In this document: piece after piece, positions 29,209 through 52,908 of the stretch
How positions within the stretch are numbered: the first letter of the stretch is position 1
Layout of the letters: every line of letters begins with the position of its first letter
NCBI GenBank assembly: GCA_035653615.1
Contig: DASRBN010000043.1
Span: 1-55,566 of the forward strand
Reading direction: 5' to 3'
Origin: Ktedonobacteraceae bacterium
GTDB taxonomy: Bacteria > Chloroflexota > Ktedonobacteria > Ktedonobacterales > Ktedonobacteraceae
Length of the DNA: 55,566 bases
Program-made: the position numbers and the translations under genes
Notes under the pieces: model-generated
What the model saw: the letters and a program-made list of their open reading frames with translations, nothing else
The model's database searches: none
Told to the model about the DNA's origin: nothing

Positions 29209-29747
29209 TCCTAAATCAAATCTCTACGCTTGATAGGCCCTACATGTGGCATCAGGCTACCTCTCCAACAGGTAGTTCGATTCCATCAACAGCAGGTAAA
29301 GGGAAATGGAGGGAGACGCGCAATAAAATCTCGCCTTCCAGCACTTCTTTCAGCAAGTCACGGCATGCTTCGAGTGTTTCCGCTGGCAATATCCTTGCTC
29401 TCAACCGAATTTTAACCACATCTTTACCAGAAGGTCATTGGTTTTCATCTACAATCTTCTATGGCCCAGACAAAAATAGTATAGTAGGAGATTATCATTG
29501 GCTCTCTTTCCTGAAGAAGTGATCGGGGTGGACCTACCTCAATCCTCTCAAATGAGGAAGTACTTATTATCACGGGCATTCCCAAAATCCGCTCTCAATC
29601 TACAATAGAGCCACTTTAGTAGAGCAGAGCTAGCGCCCAACGTGTCGACGGTTGCATAGTGGAGTAACTAACGAAGATACTGCTGTTAAAACGTGTCTAT
29701 ATTTTGAGGTATGAAAGCCGGGCTTTGTAACGAAGTATGAGGTGAGG
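29209..29747. other. Stretch between MeaB and the defence island
   Basis: Apart from the possible small minus-strand gene, nothing is seen. A change from G+C-rich core codons to A+T-rich sequence occurs here, so the left border of the island probably lies between about 29420 and 29740. Confidence 0.4.
29252..29419 (-). CDS. Possible 55-residue protein
   Basis: The minus strand reads GTG then a 55-residue frame, VVKIRLRARILPAETLEACR, DLLKEVLEGEILLRVSLHFP and an end of LPVGEVA before TGA. It has an alternation of charged helix and beta strand that looks protein-like, and clean codon use. No strong ribosome site precedes the GTG and a stop codon lies six codons upstream. No family was recognised. 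The overlapping plus-strand frame does not look like a protein. It could be a fragment of a decayed gene. Confidence 0.35.
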   Translation of the reverse strand: MVKIRLRARILPAETLEACRDLLKEVLEGEILLRVSLHFPLPAVDGIELPVGEVA

Positions 29748-30446
29748 ATGAGTGCTACTTTTAACATCTATTGTGATGAAAGTTGCCATCTACAAAATGA
29801 TCGTCAAAAGGTCATGGTTTTGGGTGCTGTATGGTGTCCGTTAGAAAAGACCAGGGAAATTGCCATACGTATTCGTGAAATTAAAAGACGTCACGGACTT
29901 TCACTTAATTTTGAGATTAAATGGTCCAAGGTTTCTCCTGCTAAACAATTATTTTATATGGATTTATTGGATTATTTTTTTGATGACGATGACCTACATT
30001 TTCGGGCTTTGATAGTTGCTGATAAATCAAAATTGCGTCATCAGGATTTCGCACAAGATCATGATACATGGTATTACAAAATGTATTTTGATCTATTAAA
30101 GGTTTTGCTTTTACCTCAGGCAGAATATAGTATTTACCTCGATATTAAAGATACTAGAAGTGCTACTAAAATTGCTGAGCTACATGAGGTTCTTTCTAAC
30201 AATATGTATGATTATGAGCGCAAGATCATTAAACGTATTCAAACTGTCCGCTCACATGAGATTGAGCAAATACAATTGGCAGATCTATTGATTGGAATTG
30301 TGGGTTATGCAAATCGCAATCTCAATACCAATCAAGCTAAATTGGCTCTTGTTGAGAGAATGCGCTATAGGTCACATTATAGCCTCACGAAAACGACCTT
30401 ACTACGTGAAGATAAAGTGAATTTATTCCGCTGGGAGGCGAGGTAA
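29748..30446 (+). CDS. DUF3800 protein, RNase H-like fold
   Basis: A 232-residue protein with the DUF3800 hallmarks: an opening YCDES (8-12), a late EQIQLADLLIG motif and acidic positions between. DUF3800 proteins are predicted RNase H-fold nucleases often found on mobile elements and in defence islands. The base composition is clearly more A+T rich than the core genes. The start is ATG 29748 after GAGG; GTG 29742 is possible. It is the first of four plus-strand genes ending with the DprA-like gene, and the next gene begins eight bases later. Function within this set is unknown. Confidence 0.8.
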   Translation: MSATFNIYCDESCHLQNDRQKVMVLGAVWCPLEKTREIAIRIREIKRRHGLSLNFEIKWSKVSPAKQLFYMDLLDYFFDDDDLHFRALIVADKSKLRHQDFAQDHDTWYYKMYFDLLKVLLLPQAEYSIYLDIKDTRSATKIAELHEVLSNNMYDYERKIIKRIQTVRSHEIEQIQLADLLIGIVGYANRNLNTNQAKLALVERMRYRSHYSLTKTTLLREDKVNLFRWEAR

Positions 30447-30454
30447 GCCTTACT

Positions 30455-30994
30455 ATGCGTAGTGGTACACTGGTGCTTCCTCCACTGATTCTTTTGCAAG
30501 ATTATCAGAACAATTGGGATCAATATTTGGAAGCAATCTATCAAATCTTCTGCCGGGATTTTGTCACGTCCAAGCCAGATTTCGAGGGTAAGCGCTTTGC
30601 GCTGAAACGTCACCCTATGATAAAAGGTAAAGAGGCCACTTTTTGGCATATTATCAGTGAAGGTGATGTAGAAGATGAACGTCTGCCAGATTTACGTCGT
30701 TGTGAACGTATACCCTGGCCACGCCCAATGATAGAAGCGATCAAATTCGAGCAGATAAAGTGGTGGAGGAACAGGCGGAAAGAGGAAGAGAGGATAGTGA
30801 TTGCCCTGGATGATTTTAGCTATATTGTTGTGTTGGCTGACCGTGGCGATTATGTACTTCTCTGGACAGCTTATTGTGTGGAGCAAGAGCATAGGCGTCA
30901 AAAATTACGGCGCGAATACGACGCATATAGGGGGGAAAAGGCTGGTGCCGCCCCGAAGAACGGCACCGTTACTCCTTCTACACATGGTAGATGA
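30455..30994 (+). CDS. Unknown 179-residue protein between DUF3800 and RecQ genes
   Basis: No family was recognised with confidence. The protein has aromatic and charged blocks: ATFWHIISEGD, PDLRRCERIPWPRP, EEERIVIALDDFSYIVVLADRGDYVLLWTAYC and a basic tail EQEHRRQKLRREYD. A conserved Trp/His pair and a single-beta-sheet pattern followed by basic residues recall small RelE/barnase-like (BECR) toxins, but this is a guess from shape. It lies eight bases after the DUF3800 gene and 90 before the helicase gene. It could be a toxin or an unrelated small effector. Confidence 0.55.
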   Translation: MRSGTLVLPPLILLQDYQNNWDQYLEAIYQIFCRDFVTSKPDFEGKRFALKRHPMIKGKEATFWHIISEGDVEDERLPDLRRCERIPWPRPMIEAIKFEQIKWWRNRRKEEERIVIALDDFSYIVVLADRGDYVLLWTAYCVEQEHRRQKLRREYDAYRGEKAGAAPKNGTVTPSTHGR

Positions 30995-31084
30995 GCTACC
31001 TTACGTCAGGAATCATATTCCAAAAAAATGGGGAAGTCAAGGGTTCTTTTCACAAAAATTGAATAATCAGGGGGATTTGTTCAA

Positions 31085-33136
31085 ATGGCATCGGCGGGTA
31101 CGTGGCACAGTGTTCCACCGGAAAAGCTGCTGGAAGAACGTTTCCATATCTCAGCAGGCTTCCATCCAGGTCAGCGTGACATCATCGAGCAACTTGTGCA
31201 GGGCAAACGCGTTTTTGCTATCCAGCGAACTGGTTGGGGAAAATCGCTTTGTTATCAAATGACCAGCTTATATTATCCACATCTCACGCTCGTCTTCTCA
31301 CCCTTAAAAGCACTCATGCGCGATCAATGCAAACGCTGTAATGAAGTATATGCTATTCCTGCAGCTATCGTCAGCTCAGATTTTACTGAGGATGAGAACC
31401 GAATGACATTAGAACGAGCGGTAGCAGGACACTTCAAAATACTGTATATTGCTCCCGAACGTTTGAGCAATATGCTCTGGCAATCCTACGTGTATAGGAT
31501 GCGCATCAGTATGATCGTGATTGATGAAGCTCATTGCATTTCTACATGGGGTCACGATTTTCGCCCGCATTATCGTCGTATTGTGAATTTGTTGAGGGCG
31601 CTTTCTGATAGAGTTCCCGTACTGGCTCTGACTGCGACTGCAAACAAACGTGTTGAGCAGGATGTACTGCAACAGATTGGGGAAAGCGCGCAAGTAGTTC
31701 GTGGTACCATGCGGCGTCCCAACTTACACCTGAACGTTGTGACGTTGAGTGGCGATCAGGAGAAGCTCAGCTATCTAGGAGAAGTCCTTCCTCAGTGGCC
31801 CGGTACGGGCATTATCTACACAGCAACTAAAAGCAGTGCGGAAGTGGTAGCCGCATTTCTCCAAAAACAGGGACTGGGAGCAGAGTATTACCATGCAGGC
31901 AGAGAAGATACTATTCGGCAGAATATTGAGCACAAGTTTATGGCCAATCAATACAAGGTTGTTTGTTCTACCAATGCACTCGGCATGGGCATTGACAAGC
32001 CAGATGTACGTTTCATTGTGCATTATCAAATTCCTGCCTCTCCCATCCACTATTATCAAGAGATGGGTAGGGCAGGGCGTGATGGGAAAGATTCTACATG
32101 TCTTCTTCTCTATGATGGTACTGACTTACTTATACAAGAACACTTTATACGTAATGCGAAGCCTGAAGGAAAGGCTTATGAGACCGTTTTGTTCCAGCTA
32201 CGGATGAATCCTCAAGGTCTACGTGAGAGCGATATGATGCGAGCCACCGGATTTTCTCAGGGGTCTATTCGCACTATTCTCGCAGACCTTGAAGATCAGG
32301 GGTTGATCAAGCGCGATGTTAGAAATCCCACCTATACTGCCGTAGAATGGCCAGGGAAAATTGATTTTTCTGAGTACGATATGGTACGCGAACAGAAACA
32401 GCGCGAATTAGCTGATATTCGGAATTATGCAACCTTACAATCGTGCTACATGGGGTATCTCACGACCTATCTTGGCGATTTACCTGGATATCAATGTGGA
32501 ACATGCGGATATTGCCAGCCTACAAATTTTCCACTTATTAGGCCTTCAGAAAGAATACAAGGAGCAGCGGCATATTTTCTTGAGGAGGAGCTTTTGCCTC
32601 GTATTGAGAAACGTGGAAGTGAGAGAAATCCCATTCATGAGGCCGGTTGGTCGCTTTCGTATCATGGAGATAGTCGTGTAGCTAAGCTGGTGCGGGCCAG
32701 CAAATACGAAAATGCTGGCCCATTTCCTTTAAGTCTGGTTATACGGGCCGCTGAAACGATACGTACTTGCTATCCAATTGCTGAAATCAGTGGTATAGTG
32801 AGTGTACCACCAACAAAGAGTGGATCATTGGTGGAAGTATTTGCCCGCCAGGTTGCTGATCGGTTAGGAGTTGAATACTTGCCTGTGATTATGAAAGTGC
32901 GACAGACTGGTGAGCAGAAGAGTTTTACAAATCGCTTACAGAAAGAGGATAATGTAAAAGGAGCTTTCTCAGTTCCCTCTCGTGCGCGCGTGACTGGACG
33001 TACGTTATTACTGGTAGATGACATTTATGATTCTGGCTACATGCTGCGTGAGGTGGCAAAAACACTCATGCAAGCTGGAGCAAGAGCTGTTTATCCATTC
33101 ACCATAACACGCACTGTACACTCAGATGATCAATAG
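31085..33136 (+). CDS. RecQ-like helicase fused to a phosphoribosyltransferase domain
   Basis: A 683-residue protein. The helicase (about 1-480) has Walker A RTGWGKS (48-54), DEAH (147-150) with the RecQ-type [11 protein letters not shown], and a helicase C domain with [10 protein letters not shown] and GRAGRDGK. A Cys cluster CGTCGYC (about 474-482) marks the RecQ zinc domain. The C-terminus (about 560-683) is PRTase-like: VDDIYDSG (about 643-650) matches the PRPP-binding loop, as in ComF/GntX-type enzymes. RecQ alone lacks such a domain. It ends ten bases before the DprA-like start, so the two share a transcript. Confidence 0.85.
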
Positions 33137-33146
33137 GAGGAAAACA

Positions 33147-34148
33147 ATGATGAGAGATTTACGAGAGCAAGCATGCTGGCTCCTGCTGGCTTTTGAAAGC
33201 GGGCTTCCTATTCGTATCATCAATGATATTCTTGTGTCCTGGTGTGTACAAAGTAAGCGCTCCTTACAAGAGTTCTTTGCCGCAAGTTCGGAGGAATGGA
33301 TAAAAACCTGCCATCTCAATGCAGGCATGATTGAGAAATTAGAGAAAGCCAATGAGAAACTTGTGGGGCAGGCATTTCTTGTGGAACAGCTGGCTCACAA
33401 CTCTATCTCCTTGCTAACTGTTCTCGACGATGATTATCCTAAGTTACTCAAAACCGCTCTCAAACGTGATCAAACACCTCCAGTTCTTTTCTACGCCGGT
33501 AATTTGCGGATTCTCGAACGCAAAACTATTGCAATTATAGGTTCGCGCAATGCCGGGGAAGAAAGTCTTGCATTCACTCGCGCTGTGGCCCAATATTTAG
33601 CAACACAAGGAGCTAATGTTATCAGTGGAAATGCGCGTGGTGTTGATCGGACTGCATATGAGGGGGCAACCAATACTGATGGATGTACAACTGTTGTGTT
33701 ACCTCACGGTATTCGTAAGCTGAGCCGCGTTCAGATGCAGGCGCTATTGCCGAAGATTGAAGCTGGAAAAGTACTACTGGTGAGCCAATTTCATCCTGAT
33801 GCCCAATGGGTAGTAAGCCGGGCTATGGAACGCAATAAGGTCGTAACTGGTCTCGCGCAAATCGTGATTGTTGCCGAATCGGATGTTCAAGGCGGTACCT
33901 GGGCAGGCGCAAATGGAGCTTTGAAGCAGCATCGGCCACTCTATGTACGTAAGCCGGAGCTTACTTCATCACTTCCAGGCAATAAAGCCTTGATAGAGCT
34001 TGGTGGTCATCCCTTACCCTGGCCTACAGATGCACTATCAGATGTTCTATCCCCTTTACTCGTAGCAAGCGATCAAATACGTCAGAAGCAGAATGGCACA
34101 TCGACCCGTCCGAGCCAACTTTCGTTGCTTGCCCTTTCTAACGAGTAG
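33147..34148 (+). CDS. DprA/Smf-like protein
   Basis: A 333-residue protein. Residues 1-100 form a helical lead-in and about 125-300 a Rossmann domain with IAIIGSRNAGEES, SGNARGVDRTAYEGA and VVLPHGIRKL, the DprA/Smf motifs that in competence bind single-stranded DNA and load RecA. The chromosome of this window shows no competence genes nearby. The start is ATG 33147 after AGGAGG; the frame from 33126 lacks support. DprA-like proteins next to helicases and phosphoribosyltransferases recur in mobile and defence loci, which makes a non-competence role likely here. Confidence 0.82.
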   Translation: MMRDLREQACWLLLAFESGLPIRIINDILVSWCVQSKRSLQEFFAASSEEWIKTCHLNAGMIEKLEKANEKLVGQAFLVEQLAHNSISLLTVLDDDYPKLLKTALKRDQTPPVLFYAGNLRILERKTIAIIGSRNAGEESLAFTRAVAQYLATQGANVISGNARGVDRTAYEGATNTDGCTTVVLPHGIRKLSRVQMQALLPKIEAGKVLLVSQFHPDAQWVVSRAMERNKVVTGLAQIVIVAESDVQGGTWAGANGALKQHRPLYVRKPELTSSLPGNKALIELGGHPLPWPTDALSDVLSPLLVASDQIRQKQNGTSTRPSQLSLLALSNE

Positions 34149-34163
34149 CGAATCTATCGATCT

Positions 34164-34886
34164 ATGTCTATAACTACTCTTGACCTGCGAGGCCGCGACC
34201 TCATCATCATCCCACCCAAAGACATGCTGCACCTGCCCACTGAGGAATTGCAGCAGGCCCTTTTTGGCGATTACTTGCCCACGGCTATACGCATCTCCAT
34301 GGGCCGTGATAAACGCCAGCATTTTTTGCGTACCCTGCCCATGAATTTCAGCGCTCTTAAAAGTGCTCTACGCAAACAGCAGACGCCGTTCACCGTCGCC
34401 TTTGAGGAACGGCCCGTGCTGCCTTTTGCAACCTCGCTTACGATGGAACCACGCCCATATCAGGAGGAGGCTTTGACGCGCTGGCTGGCGGAGGGTAGCG
34501 CGGGCGTCGTCGTGCTTCCTACGGGCGCGGGCAAGACGCTGGTGGCGGCCATGGCTATCCATGAAACCGGGCTGTGGACGCTGGTCGTGGTGCCCACACT
34601 TGATCTGCTGCAACAATGGCGCAATGCGTTGACCGCCGCCTTGGGATTGGCGGAGGCCGATGAATCGGCGGCGGGCGCGATTCATCGGCCCCTAAAGGCA
34701 GAAGATGGGATTCCAGAAGAGGATGGGCTTACGCTGACGGAAAAGATTGGCGTCTTTGGCGGCGGCGACAAAGATATTCGACCGATTACGATCATCACCT
34801 ATGATTCCGCGGCGCTGTATCCACGCGAGTTGCGGCGCTTTGGGCTGCTGGTCTTCGACGTGCTCTGGGTAATCGAGGAGTGTTAA
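34164..34886 (+). pseudogene. XPB-like helicase, cut off before motif II
   Basis: A 240-residue N-terminal part of a superfamily 2 helicase. Walker A is LPTGAGKT (118-125) and PRPYQEEAL is motif Q-like, typical of XPB/Rad25-type bacterial helicases. The frame should reach a DExH box after LLVFD, but instead reads LLVFDVLWVIEEC and stops; the rest of the helicase is missing from the window. The coding region is G+C-rich core-type, unlike the genes on both sides. A palindromic repeat is read through in frame at 34655-34690. The break near 34857 is likely the left end of the inserted CD-NTase module. Confidence 0.75.
34655..34690. repeat. Palindromic repeat read inside the helicase remnant
   Basis: GGCCGATGAATCG at 34655-34667 pairs exactly with 34678-34690. 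The palindromic core recurs at 13374-13389. In the remnant it codes about residues 164-176 without breaking the frame. Confidence 0.75.
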
Positions 34887-34968: not shown

Positions 34969-35035
34969 CAAGCACGATTACTAGCAGTCTTACCAAAGGA
35001 CTGCCAAAATTGTAAGGTTGCGAGGAGTTGGTCTC

Positions 35036-35938
35036 GTGGCAAAGACAGTGGCCCAGGGCTTTCAGGAATTTCGTTCAAGACTTGAAATCACTAATCTTCA
35101 AGCATCCGCAGTTTCTCAACGCCATCAGCATATACGCGAAATTCTTAAGAGAGAGTTGCCTGTGGTGGACGATGACGGCGATTTCTTAACCGGGTCGTAT
35201 GTACGCAAGACGATGATTGCTCCACTCAAAGATGCTGATATTGACATTTTCTTCGTCCTGGATCGAAGTCTCTACTATCACCATGATCAGGCTTCACTCC
35301 TTGATACAGTGAAATCCACCCTGAAGAAGGCGTTCCCCACGACAGCAGATATTAGTCGAGATGGGCAAGCTGTCACCGTCTCCTTTCGTGATTTCAAGGT
35401 AGACGTCGTTTCCGCCTTTCATCGCATGCTCCGCTTTTTCTTTCCAAGCTATCTCATTGCCAATACGATCACGAACACATGGATCACCACCAACCCAAAG
35501 GAACATATCGCCATCTGGAGCAAGGCGAATCAAGAGCACGATGACAAGCTCATCCCGCTGATCAAAATGATGAAAGCCTGGAACAAGACGAATGGTGGTT
35601 TGCTCACCTCGTTCCATCTCGAGTGTCTCTTGCTGCAGATTTTGAAAGAACAGCCCATCACAGATTTCCCTTCGGCTGTGCAGTATGCGTTTGGCAAGGC
35701 CAGACGCTATTTTCGTTACCCTTTTTTCTTCACTGTACACGATCCCTCTGTATCCAATTCTGATGTGGGGGCCTACTTAAACACTCACAAGAAAAGAGAG
35801 GCCGTTTTCGGCCGGTTGGAAATGGCATACGCGAGGGCGAAAAAAGCCCAAGAATTGGCTGCTCAGGGCAACATCCAGGAAGCTTTCACGAATTGGCGGC
35901 ATGTCTTCGGTGACTACTACTTCCCCGCCTTCGGGTAA
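35036..35938 (+). CDS. CD-NTase-like (SMODS) nucleotidyltransferase 1
   Basis: A 300-residue nucleotidyltransferase of the SMODS/CD-NTase type. The active site is GSYVRKTMI (53-61) with Asp68 and Asp70 in DADIDIF and a third Asp123 in FKVDVVSAF. The GS, DxD and third acid are complete, so synthesis of a cyclic or linear oligonucleotide second messenger is plausible. The C-terminus ends NWRHVFGDYYFPAFG, shared in form with the two following genes. The start is GTG 35036 after GAGGAG; a TTG at 35018 is less likely. It opens the three-gene run. Confidence 0.82.
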   Translation: MAKTVAQGFQEFRSRLEITNLQASAVSQRHQHIREILKRELPVVDDDGDFLTGSYVRKTMIAPLKDADIDIFFVLDRSLYYHHDQASLLDTVKSTLKKAFPTTADISRDGQAVTVSFRDFKVDVVSAFHRMLRFFFPSYLIANTITNTWITTNPKEHIAIWSKANQEHDDKLIPLIKMMKAWNKTNGGLLTSFHLECLLLQILKEQPITDFPSAVQYAFGKARRYFRYPFFFTVHDPSVSNSDVGAYLNTHKKREAVFGRLEMAYARAKKAQELAAQGNIQEAFTNWRHVFGDYYFPAFG

Positions 35939-35993
35939 ACTTCTGAGGGCATGTGGGAGCAAACAGCGCTACTGATATCTGGTGAGGGAAGGC

Positions 35994-37139
35994 ATGGGCA
36001 AAACAGTTGATGAGGGGTTTCGTGAGTTTCACGGGACACTGACGCCAACGCGCGGGGAATCTCAGGCAGCAAAAAGTCAGAGAATAGCTGTTGAGGCTTG
36101 CCTCCGAAAGAGCTTTGAGATCACCCGGTTCTTTCATACGGGTTCTTTCGGGAATGGCACTAGTATCCAGGGCTACAGCGATGTCGACTACTTTGCCTGC
36201 ATTCCCGCCAAGCATCTTCGACAGCATTCGTTCACGATGTTACAGGAAGTTCGAGAAGCACTGCTTGGCTGTTTTCAGAGTGCCGATATTGCTATTCGGC
36301 CACCGGCTGTGCGGGTGCGTTTTGCCACCGGTGCACCTGAGTCGATAGAGGTTGTCCCGGCGGATTTCATTCACAGAGATCAAGGCGGCAACTTCATCTA
36401 TGAGATTGCCGATGGTGCCGGTGGCTGGTTGCGATCCAGCCCAGATGCTCACAAGAACTATGTTGATGAAGTTGACCGGAAATTGGACGGTAAGGTCAAG
36501 CCGCTGGTGAGACTGTTGAAAGCATGGAAGTATTACCACGGCGCGCCTATTCGTTCATTCTACTTAGAACTTCATGTGACACGCTATGCTTCGCAAAAAA
36601 AGTCTATTGCCTATTCAAGTGATGTGAGAAATATCCTCAAGCTCCTTCTGGAGAACCGGCTTGCTACTCTACAAGACCCGAAAGGTATTTCTCGGCACAT
36701 CTTGCCGTGCGCATCCGAGGCCCAGAGAACCGATGTGCTCTCAAAGCTAGCCATCGCCTTCACGCGAGCGGAAAAGGCACGAGAAGCGGAAAAAGCCGGA
36801 AACATTCGCGGGGCATACGAGTGGTGGAATTTGGTGTTTGCCAGAAAGTTCCCAGGATACGATGCGCTCCCTTTGAGGTGTAGCGACCTGCTAGAGGTAG
36901 CATCAAAGCGGGTCCATGAGCAGGGCACTGGAACAGTCTTTGCCCCGAATGCAGCTTGGTCAAGGCAAAATTGGCGCCGGATACCTATAGGCGTTTCGCT
37001 CGTCCTCCGATCGTGGCTGATCCATCTAGCGGAGATTCAGCGCTTGTTCTCCTTACATATCTATGGTACAGTTGTCCGAGCATCACCTTTGGAGGGAGCA
37101 ACACAGCATGGCGTATACCGTATGGGGTGCGTTCGATAA
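35994..37139 (+). CDS. CD-NTase-like (SMODS) nucleotidyltransferase 2
   Basis: A 381-residue paralogue. Active-site residues are GSFGNGTSI (50-58), Asp63 and Asp65 in SDVDYF and Glu119 in ESIEVVPADF, where the others have Asp. The N-terminal MGKTVDEGFREF matches MAKTVAQGFQEF of its neighbour. A WWNLVFARKFPGY block marks the end of the shared domain at about 290; about 85 further residues are unlike the neighbours and overlap the next gene by 32 bases. A different frame there reads RFARPPIVADPSSGD, so a frameshift near the end is possible. It follows the first gene by 55 bases. Confidence 0.78.
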   Translation: MGKTVDEGFREFHGTLTPTRGESQAAKSQRIAVEACLRKSFEITRFFHTGSFGNGTSIQGYSDVDYFACIPAKHLRQHSFTMLQEVREALLGCFQSADIAIRPPAVRVRFATGAPESIEVVPADFIHRDQGGNFIYEIADGAGGWLRSSPDAHKNYVDEVDRKLDGKVKPLVRLLKAWKYYHGAPIRSFYLELHVTRYASQKKSIAYSSDVRNILKLLLENRLATLQDPKGISRHILPCASEAQRTDVLSKLAIAFTRAEKAREAEKAGNIRGAYEWWNLVFARKFPGYDALPLRCSDLLEVASKRVHEQGTGTVFAPNAAWSRQNWRRIPIGVSLVLRSWLIHLAEIQRLFSLHIYGTVVRASPLEGATQHGVYRMGCVR

Positions 37140-38121
37140 GTTTCGCACCGAGACCGTCGATCTCGATCCTGAAGTGACCAGGGCGGGGCGGTCGAGCCGG
37201 GACTATCTTGTTGAGCAGATCAAGAAAGTCGCCCAGGACAACGTAGCCTTTCCGCGGCTAGGCGGCGAGTACCGCCCCTATGGCTCATTTGCCCGTCGAA
37301 CGAAAATCCAGCCGTTGAACGATATCGACCTGCTCCTGGTTCTGAATAGCCGTGGCACGATGGAGGAGCGAACAGGAGAGCTGAACACCTCTCGGCTGAA
37401 AATCACTGATGCGACGTCCCCTCTGGCCTCTTTTTCGGAAATAATCACCTCTTACTTTGACAACCCCTGGTACGTGAATTCGACCAAGGTGCTGAATGCT
37501 ATCAAAGTGGGTCTCGCCGCGATTCCCAACTACAGCAAGGCCGATATTAAGCGGACAGGCGTGGCTGTCACCCTCAACCTCACGAGTCGCCCCTGGGTCT
37601 TCGATATTGTGCCAGCTCTGGCGGTTGGAGACTCGGTGAACTACTATCTCATCCCCAACGGCAAAGGACAGTGGATGCGGACAGACCCCCGCATTGATAG
37701 CACTAACGTAACGACCGCATCCACTAGGCACGCTGGAAAGTTCTTGCCCACCCTTCGGTTGCTCAAGTATTGGAACGGGCGACCGACCAAGCCGCGGCTG
37801 GGATCCTATTACTTCGAGACGCTGGCGCTCAAGGCCTTCGCCTCGGGGCCCGCGATCGCTAGCGATCCCACGGCGGTCAAGCACTTCTTTGATCAAGGGT
37901 CAACATACTTGTGGCTGCCGTGTCCAGACCCAAAGGGACTTGGCGCAGCGTTGGACGTATCAGTCGACTCCACGACGAAGGCCAAAGTCGCGGAAGCGAT
38001 GAAAGAGGCGGCAACGTGGGCCGGATACGCACTCATGTACGAAGGCCAGTCGGACATGAAGAGCGCGATCTACTGGTGGGGGCGAGTGTTTGGAAACGCA
38101 TTCCCGGCGTACGGGGGTTGA
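37108..38121 (+). CDS. CD-NTase-like (SMODS) nucleotidyltransferase 3
   Basis: A 337-residue paralogue and the most diverged of the three. Its active site is GSFARRTKI (59-67), Asp72 and Asp74 in NDIDLLL and Asp166 in FDIVPAL. The C-terminal YWWGRVFGNAFPAYGG matches the end of gene 1. The start is ATG 37108, after GGAGGG, inside the end of gene 2. The three genes have the same direction, small gaps and one promoter, so they are one operon. Its stop lies 21 bases from the stop of the convergent S-4TM gene. Confidence 0.82.
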   Translation: MAYTVWGAFDKFRTETVDLDPEVTRAGRSSRDYLVEQIKKVAQDNVAFPRLGGEYRPYGSFARRTKIQPLNDIDLLLVLNSRGTMEERTGELNTSRLKITDATSPLASFSEIITSYFDNPWYVNSTKVLNAIKVGLAAIPNYSKADIKRTGVAVTLNLTSRPWVFDIVPALAVGDSVNYYLIPNGKGQWMRTDPRIDSTNVTTASTRHAGKFLPTLRLLKYWNGRPTKPRLGSYYFETLALKAFASGPAIASDPTAVKHFFDQGSTYLWLPCPDPKGLGAALDVSVDSTTKAKVAEAMKEAATWAGYALMYEGQSDMKSAIYWWGRVFGNAFPAYGG

Positions 38122-38142
38122 CGATCAAGGGATCGACTGCCA

Positions 38143-39009
38143 TCAGAGGCGCTTTTTTAATGCCTGCACACCCTCACGCGCATCCAGGTCAAACTTGCTG
38201 CGCCATAACTCGTACCACCAGTCGGGAATGAGTGGCCTCGTGCTTCGCATCAGGTAAATCGAGTCCTGGATGCGGCGACACTCCTCGATTAAGCGTTGTG
38301 GGCGCTTCTTGTCTTTGAGGAGGGCCTCTACGTGCGCTAAGAGCTCTGCTTTCTCTCTCGCAGATTCGGTATGGCGTCTAAAGGTGTCGATCGCCTCCAG
38401 CAGTGCAGGCAGGGCGGGAACAAGGAGTGCGACGAGGTACGCCATCAGGCTTTCTTGCTTGAGGATGCCGATCAAGACCCCAACGAGAAGGTAGCCTACG
38501 GTGATGCCGAGGAGGGTGTACGCGTAAGTGCTCTGCAAGCGTACTCCCCACATCAGGTTCGTCCGTTGGCAGAGCAGCGCATCCTTTGGATAGAGTACCC
38601 CACCTGGGTCGGGGTACCAATCTCGAATCCTATCGCTCCCGCCTTTGTACTCGTTCGCGGCGCTATTAATAAGCTCGGGGGCCACTTCCTGACCAACCAG
38701 GGTCTCGTTCCACGGAAGCTGGAAGAGATGGACGTCCAACTGCTCTTGAACGGTAGCTGCCTGTTTCACTCTGCCCGCCTCTATGCCAATGAGCAGAAGA
38801 GCAGAGACAAGTGTGAGCACCGCCCCGACCAGTTCGAGCCCGTCCCTCCAGGCTGGCATGGCTAAGACAACAAACGGCGCAGCCAACTCCAGCAGCAGGA
38901 CGGCCGCGATGCGCACAAAGTGTAACCGCTTTGCCAGGCTGTATAGACGCTTTTGAGCTGCGAGTAGTCGCAAGCTCTCAGGTGTGTTTTGTTCCTGTGC
39001 GATATCCAT
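38143..39009 (-). CDS. S-4TM family putative pore-forming effector
   Basis: A 288-residue membrane protein of the SMODS-associated S-4TM type. Helices lie at about 32-52, 58-78, 160-182 and 188-210 in two pairs. Family blocks are the opening NTPESLRLLAAQKRLYS, HLFQLPWNE after helix 2, DWYPDPGG, and CQRTNLMWGVRLQ before helix 3. Family knowledge holds that such proteins open membrane pores when triggered by the CD-NTase product. It is on the opposite strand to the three nucleotidyltransferases and converges on them. The start is ATG 39009; a GTG at 39087 is possible. It is the predicted killer of the system. Confidence 0.82.
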   Translation of the reverse strand: MDIAQEQNTPESLRLLAAQKRLYSLAKRLHFVRIAAVLLLELAAPFVVLAMPAWRDGLELVGAVLTLVSALLLIGIEAGRVKQAATVQEQLDVHLFQLPWNETLVGQEVAPELINSAANEYKGGSDRIRDWYPDPGGVLYPKDALLCQRTNLMWGVRLQSTYAYTLLGITVGYLLVGVLIGILKQESLMAYLVALLVPALPALLEAIDTFRRHTESAREKAELLAHVEALLKDKKRPQRLIEECRRIQDSIYLMRSTRPLIPDWWYELWRSKFDLDAREGVQALKKRL

Positions 39010-39324
39010 GTATGCCCACTTCTTTATAGAGAAAGTAATGCCCTCGTTGATGGTGGTATCTCTATAACTTCGGTCTGACGCACTCACGGGAATACAGTTA
39101 GGACAAAAACGAAGAGCATATTCTGCTGATTCTCTCTGCCCTTATGCCTCCTATCCTCATTAGCTATTGGAACTCTCTTCAAGATGGGCAGCACAAGTCT
39201 AGGAGTACCTAAGATCTGCAAGTCGCTGCTCTGCCGCGTTCAGTGTGTCAACACCGACCCCCTCTTTATCAGCGCTTTTGACAACCCCCGTTGCTCCGGA
39301 GATAGAAGTAGTCAGATCCAACGT
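39010..39324. other. Gene-free stretch upstream of the S-4TM gene
   Basis: No gene is seen. It must contain the S-4TM promoter on the minus strand; no clear minus-35/minus-10 pair was picked out. The stretch from about 39180 also leads into the end of the recombinase remnant. Confidence 0.35.
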
Positions 39325-39894
39325 TCAGAGATGGAAATACCTGTGCATCACATTGTCCGCTCGGTGACCCAATTGCCGTCTTAAAGCCCAGAATGGAACA
39401 TCATCTTTGATCATTTGTGCAGCAAGTGTATAGGGAAATTGGTGCGATTGAAATCGCCATACTTTGCCTGAAGCATCACAAATATTCTTATCGACCGCAA
39501 GTCGATTGAGCTGAGTCATGAAGGTTTTCGGTGAGATCCCCTGCCCCTTAGCGTTGAGAAAAAGCAAGTTCGTTTCTCCATGATGGTCCTGCTCCAATGC
39601 TAGTTGTTGATCCAGAATCGTGGCCAGTGCAATTGGTGAAAGAGGGATGGTATATTCTATCGGCGTCTTCGACTTGTCGAAACCGAGGAACCAAACTTCT
39701 TGGGGATGTCGAACAAGGCAGTCAAATGGCAGAGAGCATAACTTGCTCAGGCTTATCCCACTCGTTAGAAGCAGGATGACCATCCTTCTGATATGAACCG
39801 GGAGCGAATCTAGATGTGTTATCAATTGCATTAAAACCTCTGGAGGCATAAATTGAGGCAATTCTCTCCGAGAGATTTCCCAATGGATTTTCAT
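39325..39894 (-). pseudogene. Decayed tyrosine recombinase, catalytic-domain remnant
   Basis: A 189-residue fragment resembling Tn554-type integrases. The end LGHRADNVMHRYFHL matches the LGH and active-site Tyr region. Two catalytic arginines are missing: the usual TGxRxSEL reads TSGISLSKL, and the HxxR box SHQFRHT reads SHQFPYT. The N-terminal DNA-binding half is absent. Both defects together argue for an inactive relic. It lies beside the MITE-like element, so this point has seen transposition or integration. Confidence 0.65.
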
Positions 39895-51107: not shown

Positions 51108-51815
51108 ATGCCACGATTTGCTGTCTACTACATTCCTCAAGCCGATGATCCCTTCTATCTATTAGGAACCCAGGTCCTTGGCTACGATGTGCGAGCCCAC
51201 CAAAACGTCATTCCGCCCTCTGAGCTAAAGGAGGTCCTGGGTCCAGGTAAGCAATCCTGGACAATGTTCTGCCGTCCCTATGGATTTCACTTGACCATTT
51301 GTGAGGCGCTCGATGTCGATTGGGCAACCATCCCTCGTGTGGAACAGGAACTGGCTGATCTACTCAAATGCTTTGATTCCAGCCATCTCTTTGTGCTTGA
51401 TCGTAGAGATGACCAGCCAGTAGGTGTCTGGGAGGAAGGGGCTAGCAAGATATTGGCGTTACTCTACGAGCCCAACATGTCTCTGCGCATGCTCCATACT
51501 CTTCTCGTAGCACGGCTGACTCTGCTTGGGACCGGCTCAGGCTTTCTGAAGCGCTACCTGACACACCCACAGAAAGAACTTCCGCTTCATCTGGTGCAAC
51601 AACTCAGATTGTTTTACAGCCCTAGGGTGTTCGAGAACTGGCATCCTCACTTCACCTTGCTCAATCCGTATGAAGGGGAAGAGGCACCTATGATAGCCTC
51701 CCGCCTCGCGCAGCTCTTCCAATCTTACAGGCGGGTCATAGTGCCAACGATTTGTCTACTCATTCAGGAGAACAATGAAGCCAATTGGCAGATCTATCAG
51801 GAGTTCCGTCGATGA
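51108..51815 (+). CDS. DUF1045-like 2H phosphoesterase
   Basis: A 235-residue protein. It has two HxT motifs of 2H phosphoesterases, HLT at residues 61-63 in PYGFHLTI and HFT near 180 in WHPHFTLL. The opening MPRFAVYYIP and the spacing match DUF1045, a group found in phosphonate operons and also elsewhere. It is predicted to cut cyclic phosphodiester bonds. No phosphonate gene lies nearby, so the role is open. GGGAGAAG precedes the ATG. It stands alone. Confidence 0.72.
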   Translation: MPRFAVYYIPQADDPFYLLGTQVLGYDVRAHQNVIPPSELKEVLGPGKQSWTMFCRPYGFHLTICEALDVDWATIPRVEQELADLLKCFDSSHLFVLDRRDDQPVGVWEEGASKILALLYEPNMSLRMLHTLLVARLTLLGTGSGFLKRYLTHPQKELPLHLVQQLRLFYSPRVFENWHPHFTLLNPYEGEEAPMIASRLAQLFQSYRRVIVPTICLLIQENNEANWQIYQEFRR

Positions 51816-51984
51816 CTTGGTCAATCCTCTGTTTCAGTGAGTCCGAGCAAACTCTGAACTCCAAGTATCTAAAGCTCCTAACTTAATTGAAAGAATTGCC
51901 GGCCTATGCTAGAATAGGTCAGAGCAGCTATTAAACGAGGCTGAAACACACGTGTCAAGAATATTTTTAAGAAGGGCTTGTTTA

Positions 51985-52908
51985 ATGAGAATATTAGTTA
52001 CTGGCGGAGCTGGTTTCATAGGATCACACATTGTTGATAGCTACATAGCAGCGGGACACAGCGTGGCTGTTGTCGATAATTTATGGGAACATGGTGGGAA
52101 AGCGTCAAATGTCAATCCTAAAGCGGATTTCTTCAAAGTAGATATTAGAGATCAGGCTGCATTAGCCAGTGTCTTTGATGAGGTAAAGCCAGAGGTGGTG
52201 AACCATCAAGCTGCGCAAATGAGTGTCTTTGTCTCAACTCAAGACCCCAAATTTGATGCTGAAGTCAATATTATAGGTCTCTTCAATGTCTTAGAGAATG
52301 CTGGCCGGGTTGGCACTCGTAAAATCATTTTTGCCTCAACGGGTGCCGTTTACGGTAGCCCAGATCATTTTCCTATCACGGAGAAGTCGGAGTTATGGCC
52401 GGAATCTCCGTATGGAATTAGCAAAATGGCAGGAGAACATTATTTACGTGAATGGGCACTATCTAATGGAAGGACTTATACAATATTGCGTTATGCCAAT
52501 ATATATGGTCCGCGCCAAGACCCTTATGGGGAAGCTGGAGTAATTGCTATATTCATTAATCGCTTTCTCACGCACCAGTCGATACGTATTGATTGGGATG
52601 GCAACCAACAACGAGATTTTCTTTATGTAGGAGACCTCGTTCGGATGCATCAGCTTGTACTCAATGCAGGCGATAATGAAATATTTTGTGTGGGAACAGG
52701 AGTAGGAACATCAGTTAACGAAATTTACGAGCATTTGGCAGCCATCTTGGGGTACAGGCCAGAAATTATACGAGCTCCTAAACGCCCGGGTGACTTCTAC
52801 AAGGCTTATTTTAGTTATTCTAAGGCTCAAACTGTTCTTGGATGGGAACCTCAAGTGACCCTGAGAGAAGGGTTAAAGGAAACAGTGGAGTTTTTCAGAA
52901 ATCAATAA
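51985..52908 (+). CDS. NAD-dependent epimerase/dehydratase, sugar nucleotide type
   Basis: A 307-residue extended short-chain dehydrogenase. The NAD motif is TGGAGFIG (6-13), the active site is YGISK with a preceding Ser in FASTGAVYG, and RYANIYGP is the family block. It matches UDP-glucose 4-epimerase-like enzymes in surface sugar synthesis. The start is ATG 51985 after AAGAAGGG; upstream residues MSRIFLRRACL lack support. The gene is A+T-rich against its neighbours and stands alone, which suggests transfer. Confidence 0.85.
   Translation: MRILVTGGAGFIGSHIVDSYIAAGHSVAVVDNLWEHGGKASNVNPKADFFKVDIRDQAALASVFDEVKPEVVNHQAAQMSVFVSTQDPKFDAEVNIIGLFNVLENAGRVGTRKIIFASTGAVYGSPDHFPITEKSELWPESPYGISKMAGEHYLREWALSNGRTYTILRYANIYGPRQDPYGEAGVIAIFINRFLTHQSIRIDWDGNQQRDFLYVGDLVRMHQLVLNAGDNEIFCVGTGVGTSVNEIYEHLAAILGYRPEIIRAPKRPGDFYKAYFSYSKAQTVLGWEPQVTLREGLKETVEFFRNQ

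Follow-up and report, generated by a model that had tools for sequence, protein, structure and literature searches.

The window analysed here is a stretch of 55,566 nucleotides (nt) from a Ktedonobacteraceae bacterium (positions 1-55,566 of contig DASRBN010000043.1, assembly GCA_035653615.1), and the part studied, positions 29,748-34,148, carries an rlfA-rlfB gene pair, a small RNA gene and a PsyrTA/RqlHI gene pair. Four open reading frames (ORFs) were located at 29742-30446, 30455-30994, 31085-33136 and 33126-34148, all on the plus strand, in agreement with the first-pass annotation of this DNA, which had described four co-directional genes. The spacing of 8 nt between genes 1 and 2 and of 90 nt between genes 2 and 3 was also as given there, but the gap of 10 bases placed between the last two genes is really an 11-nt overlap. 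The G+C content of genes 1-2 is 0.407 and that of genes 3-4 is 0.468, against 0.524 for the window, confirming the A+T-rich composition noticed earlier. In the Pfam search, gene 1 matched DUF3800 (PF12686, 60 bits), gene 3 matched DEAD, Helicase_C and Pribosyltran, and gene 4 matched DNA_processg_A (PF02481, 1.5e-44), while no family was found in the same search for the protein of 179 amino acids (aa) encoded by gene 2. PADLOC placed genes 1-2 in PDC-M04, a candidate system, and genes 3-4 in PsyrTA. The identities proposed at first (DUF3800 protein, unknown protein, RecQ-like helicase with phosphoribosyltransferase (RecQ-PRTase), and DprA-like protein) hold up.

On these assignments and on the gene neighbourhoods described below, the stretch is best described as two independent defence modules placed side by side, not as one unit. 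The first-pass annotation had taken all four genes as a single unit, and it missed that the two pairs belong to separate families of defence modules, candidate or known, the convergent small RNA and a helicase remnant beyond gene 4. Its hunch that the genes act against foreign DNA has fared better, as both pairs match PADLOC models and relatives of the first pair adjoin defence genes.

The first gene is an rlfA homologue (29742-30446, plus strand; PDC-M04A, PDLC04353, 3.8e-97; DUF3800, PF12686), predicted to encode an RNase H2-fold nuclease. The second is an rlfB homologue (30455-30994, plus strand; PDC-M04B, PDLC04357, 3.6e-72), whose 179-aa product has a predicted RelE/colicin D-like fold and is a probable ribonuclease. 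The two lie adjacent, in the order of the PDC-M04 model and 8 nt apart. PDC-M04 stands in PADLOC as a candidate only, and no experimental paper on its anti-phage activity was found. Both products share protein families with RlfA and RlfB of phage P1 (PHROGs 3732 and 16230), so that PDC-M04, P1 and the window have the same two families in the same order. In P1 the rlfA-rlfB pair lies at 51740-52908 and is annotated as 'possibly associated with lytic replication'. Both genes were non-essential in a genome-wide CRISPR interference screen of P1 (PMC10695390), and some P1-like plasmids lack them or have other sequence in their place (PMC6906374), as expected of cargo genes. The second gene, rlfB, was found on about 100 plasmid records, mostly of Escherichia and Salmonella, and in the two plasmids inspected rlfB follows rlfA and the surroundings are P1-like.

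For the distribution of the pair in bacterial genomes, 80 loci with an RlfA-type DUF3800 gene were drawn from a set covering 85,000 species, with flanks fetched up to 8 kb. These loci span more than 10 phyla, including Acidobacteria, Chloroflexi, Chlorobi, Nitrospirae, Proteobacteria, Planctomycetes, Chlamydiae, Cyanobacteria, Bacteroidetes, Verrucomicrobia and Firmicutes. An rlfB gene follows rlfA in 79 of the 80, the remaining one being interrupted by a contig end. The RecQ-PRTase/DprA pair was present in none of the 80 within the fetched flanks; a RecQ-like match lacking DprA was detected at one locus (L223). Among 400 Chloroflexota genomes, 11 carry rlfB-type genes, with DUF3800 upstream unless a contig end intervenes. 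The DUF3800 and 179-aa partners thus recur without the RecQ-PRTase and DprA genes, and the neighbouring genes in relatives are unrelated, which argues against the single unit. In one Chloroflexota contig (G132 contig 445, loci L012/L063), a stop codon and a frame break split rlfB, but rlfA and the RNA are undamaged; this may be a decaying copy.

The third component is a small RNA gene, convergent with rlfB, at 30936-31005 on the minus strand. The RNA model R2 matched its core at 30998-30938 with 83.2 bits (2.6e-21), and the 5' end was estimated from the promoter, giving a predicted length of about 65-70 nt. A sigma-70-type promoter was identified at 31012-31040 (minus strand), consisting of TTGACT (31040-31035), a 17-nt spacer and TATGAT (31017-31012), and this is the best site of the region. 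The promoter falls in the 90-nt gap between genes 2 and 3, and the 3' part of the RNA runs into the end of rlfB. From the 5' end, the RNA is composed of a conserved hairpin A (CUCAUCUACCAUGUGUAGAAGGAG, 30972-30995, minus strand), supported by covariation, a short linker, and hairpin B (30944-30967, minus strand), an inverted repeat of variable sequence with conserved pairing and compensatory changes, followed by a U-tract (30939-30936). Together, hairpin B and the U-tract look like an intrinsic terminator. Across 77 linked loci the RNA is preceded by a TTGAC -35 box at about -37 and a TATAAT-like -10 box at about -14. Both the promoter and the terminator are well supported.

The structure was examined by covariation in an alignment of 52 sequences. 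In this alignment 98.5% of the cells were paired, and 58 double changes were counted against 17.7 +- 2.9 in shuffles; when the pairing partners were shifted by one base, the pairing fell to about 40%. The strand, too, is well supported. When the matches of the 80 linked loci were read on the plus strand, 81 A.C oppositions were found against 5 G.U (32:7 and 22:3 in two other alignments), an excess that corresponds to G.U wobbles on the minus strand and indicates that the minus strand is the functional one. The predicted fold energy of the minus strand was -30.4 kcal/mol with a z-score of -3.93, against a z-score of -1.62 for the plus strand. Our first reading, an RNA on the plus strand, was ruled out by the A.C/G.U counts, and then by the promoter, the fold z-scores and the tRNA orientation described below; a scan for -10 boxes on the plus strand gave no clear positional enrichment. 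With the failure of the plus-strand reading, the proposal that a CUCCUU motif mimics the 3' end of 16S rRNA was dropped.

The composition of the module, two proteins and an RNA, is well supported by the conservation of linkage. The RNA was detected 3' of rlfB in 77 of the 80 genome loci at E < 1e-4, the other three being interrupted by contig ends, and in Chloroflexota it lies beside rlfB in every genome carrying rlfB. The source genome contains one exact copy. No Rfam covariance model matched the RNA, in the window or in relatives; a 'sok' match at 34976-35107 of the window was far below its threshold and was discarded. The RNA is recorded neither in the PADLOC models of PDC-M04 nor in the P1 annotation, although it was found here with both; in P1 it is predicted at about 52978 to 52909, on the opposite strand to rlfB.

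The structure predicted for RlfA had a mean predicted local distance difference test (pLDDT) score of 90.7, and its best structural match was 1eke (Z 13.7, root-mean-square deviation 3.2 over 167 residues). Four acidic residues, D12, E58, D134 and D181, were invariant among 77 sequences. RlfA is thus predicted to adopt an RNase H2-like fold with these residues in putative catalytic roles, in agreement with the RNase H fold already predicted for DUF3800 (PMC10910872). Argonaute/Piwi domains appeared among the lower matches (Z about 8), well below RNase H2. For RlfB (pLDDT 91.2), the leading matches were all ribonucleases, RelE, HigB1, colicin D, BrnT and RegB, at weak scores (Z 5.2 to 3.5; Foldseek E above 0.08), and no sequence-level relative was found in Pfam or the Protein Data Bank (PDB). 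H65 and T/S138 were conserved in 76 of 76 sequences. A RelE/colicin D-like fold is likely for RlfB, short of being established.

The setting of rlfAB in genomes is that of a defence island, again well supported by the loci examined. Genes of type I restriction-modification (RM) systems dominate among the neighbours, with GmrSD, MazF-like, Fic, Shedu, SIR2-HerA and Mrr genes also present; these are raw counts, taken without a genome-wide baseline. The type I R subunit was found in the flank of 14 of the 80 loci and as the first gene downstream in 6. In one Chloroflexota locus (L296) the module is flanked on one side by the N-terminus of HsdR and on the other by a C-terminus that by eye is HsdS-like. 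A related arrangement was observed in Algoriphagus (L274, 4168-12546), where rlfAB, the RNA and a reverse-transcriptase gene are located between HsdM/HsdS and HsdR. The anticodon nuclease PrrC is encoded inside an hsd operon of type I RM. At some loci rlfAB adjoins type I RM genes or is flanked by them on both sides, a position that recalls that of PrrC and suggests that RlfB may be a translation-targeting RNase. The PrrC proteins are unrelated to RlfAB, however, and the likeness is one of gene setting alone.

Copies of the RNA apart from rlfAB were detected in phages. The hairpin pattern was found in at least 120 stretches of IMG/VR, against about 14 estimated to be expected by chance, and most of the matches listed had no rlfAB in the fetched sequence. 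The RNA was present without DUF3800 in the records of phi3T, Rhizobium TM30, Geobacillus PT9.1, Streptococcus Javan443 and Mammaliicoccus phi6255, and in those of Vibrio phages 1.084.O and 1.121.O, both labelled partial; RNA and DUF3800 occurred together in P1 and Bifidobacterium Bbif-1. The presence of such solo copies is well supported, and some phages carry tandem double copies. In co-directional settings, 45 solo copies follow the direction of the neighbouring genes and 7 oppose it. A tRNA gene within 300 nt was found on the same strand for 27 of 136 solo copies and on the opposite strand for none (0/136), while the value for random positions was 7.8% with either strand counted. Solo copies often close phage operons or sit in tRNA clusters, and they mostly lack a dedicated promoter. 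A 34-nt stretch over the otherwise highly variable hairpin B is identical between a solo copy and an rlfAB-linked one from Bacillus phages; exchange between phages could also account for this. In Rhizobium phage RHph_TM30 (L196, 3970-4099), two tandem copies adjoin a tRNA cluster and a gene with a TROVE (Ro-like) domain.

Small RNAs linked to DUF3800 are known as a kind, with DUF3800-I and others listed in Rfam (PMC11701678). Among these, DUF3800-IX (RF02968) belongs to the small RNA class and is U-tailed. In three loci, L350 (1501-1581), L351 and L352, it follows the 3' end of a DUF3800 gene and is convergent with it; other copies have no DUF3800 gene alongside. In contrast to the two hairpins observed here, DUF3800-IX forms a three-way junction of different sequence, and no RlfB-type gene was found beside its loci. 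A search with DUF3800-I (RF02969) gave no match in the Chloroflexota or control genomes, a result that does not show absence. By structure and sequence, the RNA of the window belongs to a separate family, and its module includes a second protein.

Another parallel in organisation is ToxIN, a type III toxin-antitoxin system, in which, as predicted here, a ribonuclease is combined with a small structured RNA, and free-standing copies of the RNA are carried by phages. The pseudo-ToxI RNA of phage PhiTE suppresses ToxIN (PMC3475682). In type III systems the antitoxin repeats are located upstream of the toxin gene and co-transcribed with it, whereas here a single copy lies 3' of rlfB on the opposite strand under its own promoter, and two proteins, with predicted RNase H2-like and RelE/colicin D-like folds, are involved.

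Genes 3 and 4 are, by homology, the PsyrTA/RqlHI pair, a described toxin-antitoxin-like system. The PsyrT/RqlH homologue (31085-33136, plus strand; PDLC03928, 4.7e-218 over 13-681) has a RecQ-like helicase part and a C-terminal phosphoribosyltransferase domain, with matches to DEAD, Helicase_C and Pribosyltran, the last above cut-off, and the PsyrA/RqlI homologue (33126-34148, plus strand; PDLC03927, 6.7e-76; PF02481, 1.5e-44) is the DprA-like partner. The helicase with its C-terminal PRTase and the overlapping DprA-like gene are common to the described systems and the window. The RecQ-PRTase RqlH of extraintestinal E. coli is genotoxic and is held in check by the DprA-like RqlI (PMC4670107). 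A DprA plus PRTase pair gives protection against T7 and lambda (PMC9122126). RecQ-PRTase and DprA are thus often found together, as the first-pass annotation would require, but as this already described pair. PsyrTA recurs apart from rlfAB among the 400 Chloroflexota genomes, and the three closest complete relatives contained no DUF3800 across the 11-15 kb read. Starting 15 nt past the DprA-like gene, the N-terminal half of an XPB-type helicase (34164-34886, plus strand; ResIII/DEAD) remains as a truncated remnant attached to this second module. In two of these three relatives, L065 (4543-5988) and L066 (3935-5389), a full-length XPB-type helicase gene lies immediately 3' of DprA, in contrast to the truncated one of the window, and a PsyrT-PsyrA-XPB arrangement may exist.

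We infer that RlfA and RlfB are nucleases, that one or both bind the RNA, that the RNA inhibits their activity, and that the phage copies may act as decoys. In the model that we tentatively prefer, at somewhat less than even confidence, the stretch holds two independent modules, PsyrTA/RqlHI being the second and rlfA, rlfB and the convergent RNA the first, in which the RNA holds a ribonuclease inactive. The small RNA would be made continuously from its own promoter, and RlfB, RlfA or both would bind it through hairpin A, keeping the ribonuclease inactive. Phage infection would disturb the synthesis of the RNA or use it up, and the nuclease so freed would cut RNA, either mRNA or tRNA, stopping phage production. 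Phages with solo copies may use them as decoys, possibly switching off an RlfAB-type system. Inhibition is favoured because the RNA has its own promoter, because its conserved hairpin is of a protein-binding type and not a guide, and because solo copies occur in phages, as with pseudo-ToxI. Three points weigh against this model. The fold match of RlfB is weak (Z about 5, with no sequence-level relative); the RNA either overlaps rlfB at its 3' end or lies right against it, making an antisense or terminator role possible; and the P1 annotation hints at lytic replication.

The main rival, which we consider unlikely, is that the RNA serves RlfA/RlfB as a positive cofactor or guide, the solo phage copies saturating or misdirecting the complex. 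RNA-guided nucleases are known among RNase H-fold proteins, Argonaute/Piwi domains were among the lower matches of RlfA, DUF3800 also adjoins Cas12a2 (PMC10910872), and the conserved hairpin A is plausible as a protein handle. The RNA, however, is near constant between species and has no unpaired variable segment of guide length, its variable part being the terminator stem, and the Argonaute-type matches fall well under that of RNase H2.

Less probable again is that the RNA merely regulates the rlfAB operon or terminates its transcription, lying antisense to the 3' end of that operon, with the solo copies as unrelated terminators or processing sites. Hairpin B is indeed a terminator, the overlap with rlfB in the window fits such a role, and so do the positions of solo copies at the ends of phage operons and in tRNA clusters. 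Yet the sequence of hairpin A, needless for a terminator, is kept across phyla and in phages without rlfAB, the linked copies have their own conserved promoter, and the part overlapping rlfB is the variable one. We rate as slightly more doubtful still that the three components serve phage replication or RNA metabolism and not defence. The location of the P1 genes downstream of repL, with the annotation quoted above, agrees with this proposal, but P1 can do without both genes (PMC10695390), some P1-like plasmids have lost or replaced them (PMC6906374), and the neighbours at most genome loci are genes for restriction and other defences. That all four genes form one defence system, for which their adjacency, common direction and A+T-richness in this genome speak, is very improbable, as none of the 80 genome loci and no other Chloroflexota locus that was read has the combination, the RNA gene between the pairs points the opposite way, and two relatives have an XPB-type helicase joined to the second pair.

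Other genes of defence type follow on the right of the two modules. Three tandem CD-NTase genes, coding for cyclases of CBASS (cyclic-oligonucleotide-based antiphage signalling system), are located at 35018-35938, 35982-37139 and 37063-38121, and a gene for an S_4TM effector (38143-39087, minus strand) is convergent with them, so that 35018-39087 resembles a CBASS locus with three cyclases. At the right edge of this defence stretch, an ORF at 39325-39894 (minus strand) resembles by eye a fragment of a tyrosine recombinase.

With these results, a candidate pair of PADLOC and two P1 genes of guessed function become a three-part system with a defined RNA, spanning more than 10 bacterial phyla and with its RNA present in many phages. 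With slightly less confidence than in the model itself, we propose that RlfA, RlfB and the RNA represent a widespread new class of RNA-controlled, toxin-antitoxin-like abortive infection, against which phages carry decoy RNAs and of which P1 carries the full system as cargo. Such a system would suggest a concrete role for the unexplained RNAs linked to DUF3800, and it predicts that phages of Bacillus, Vibrio, Rhizobium and Streptococcus counter such defence by means of RNA.

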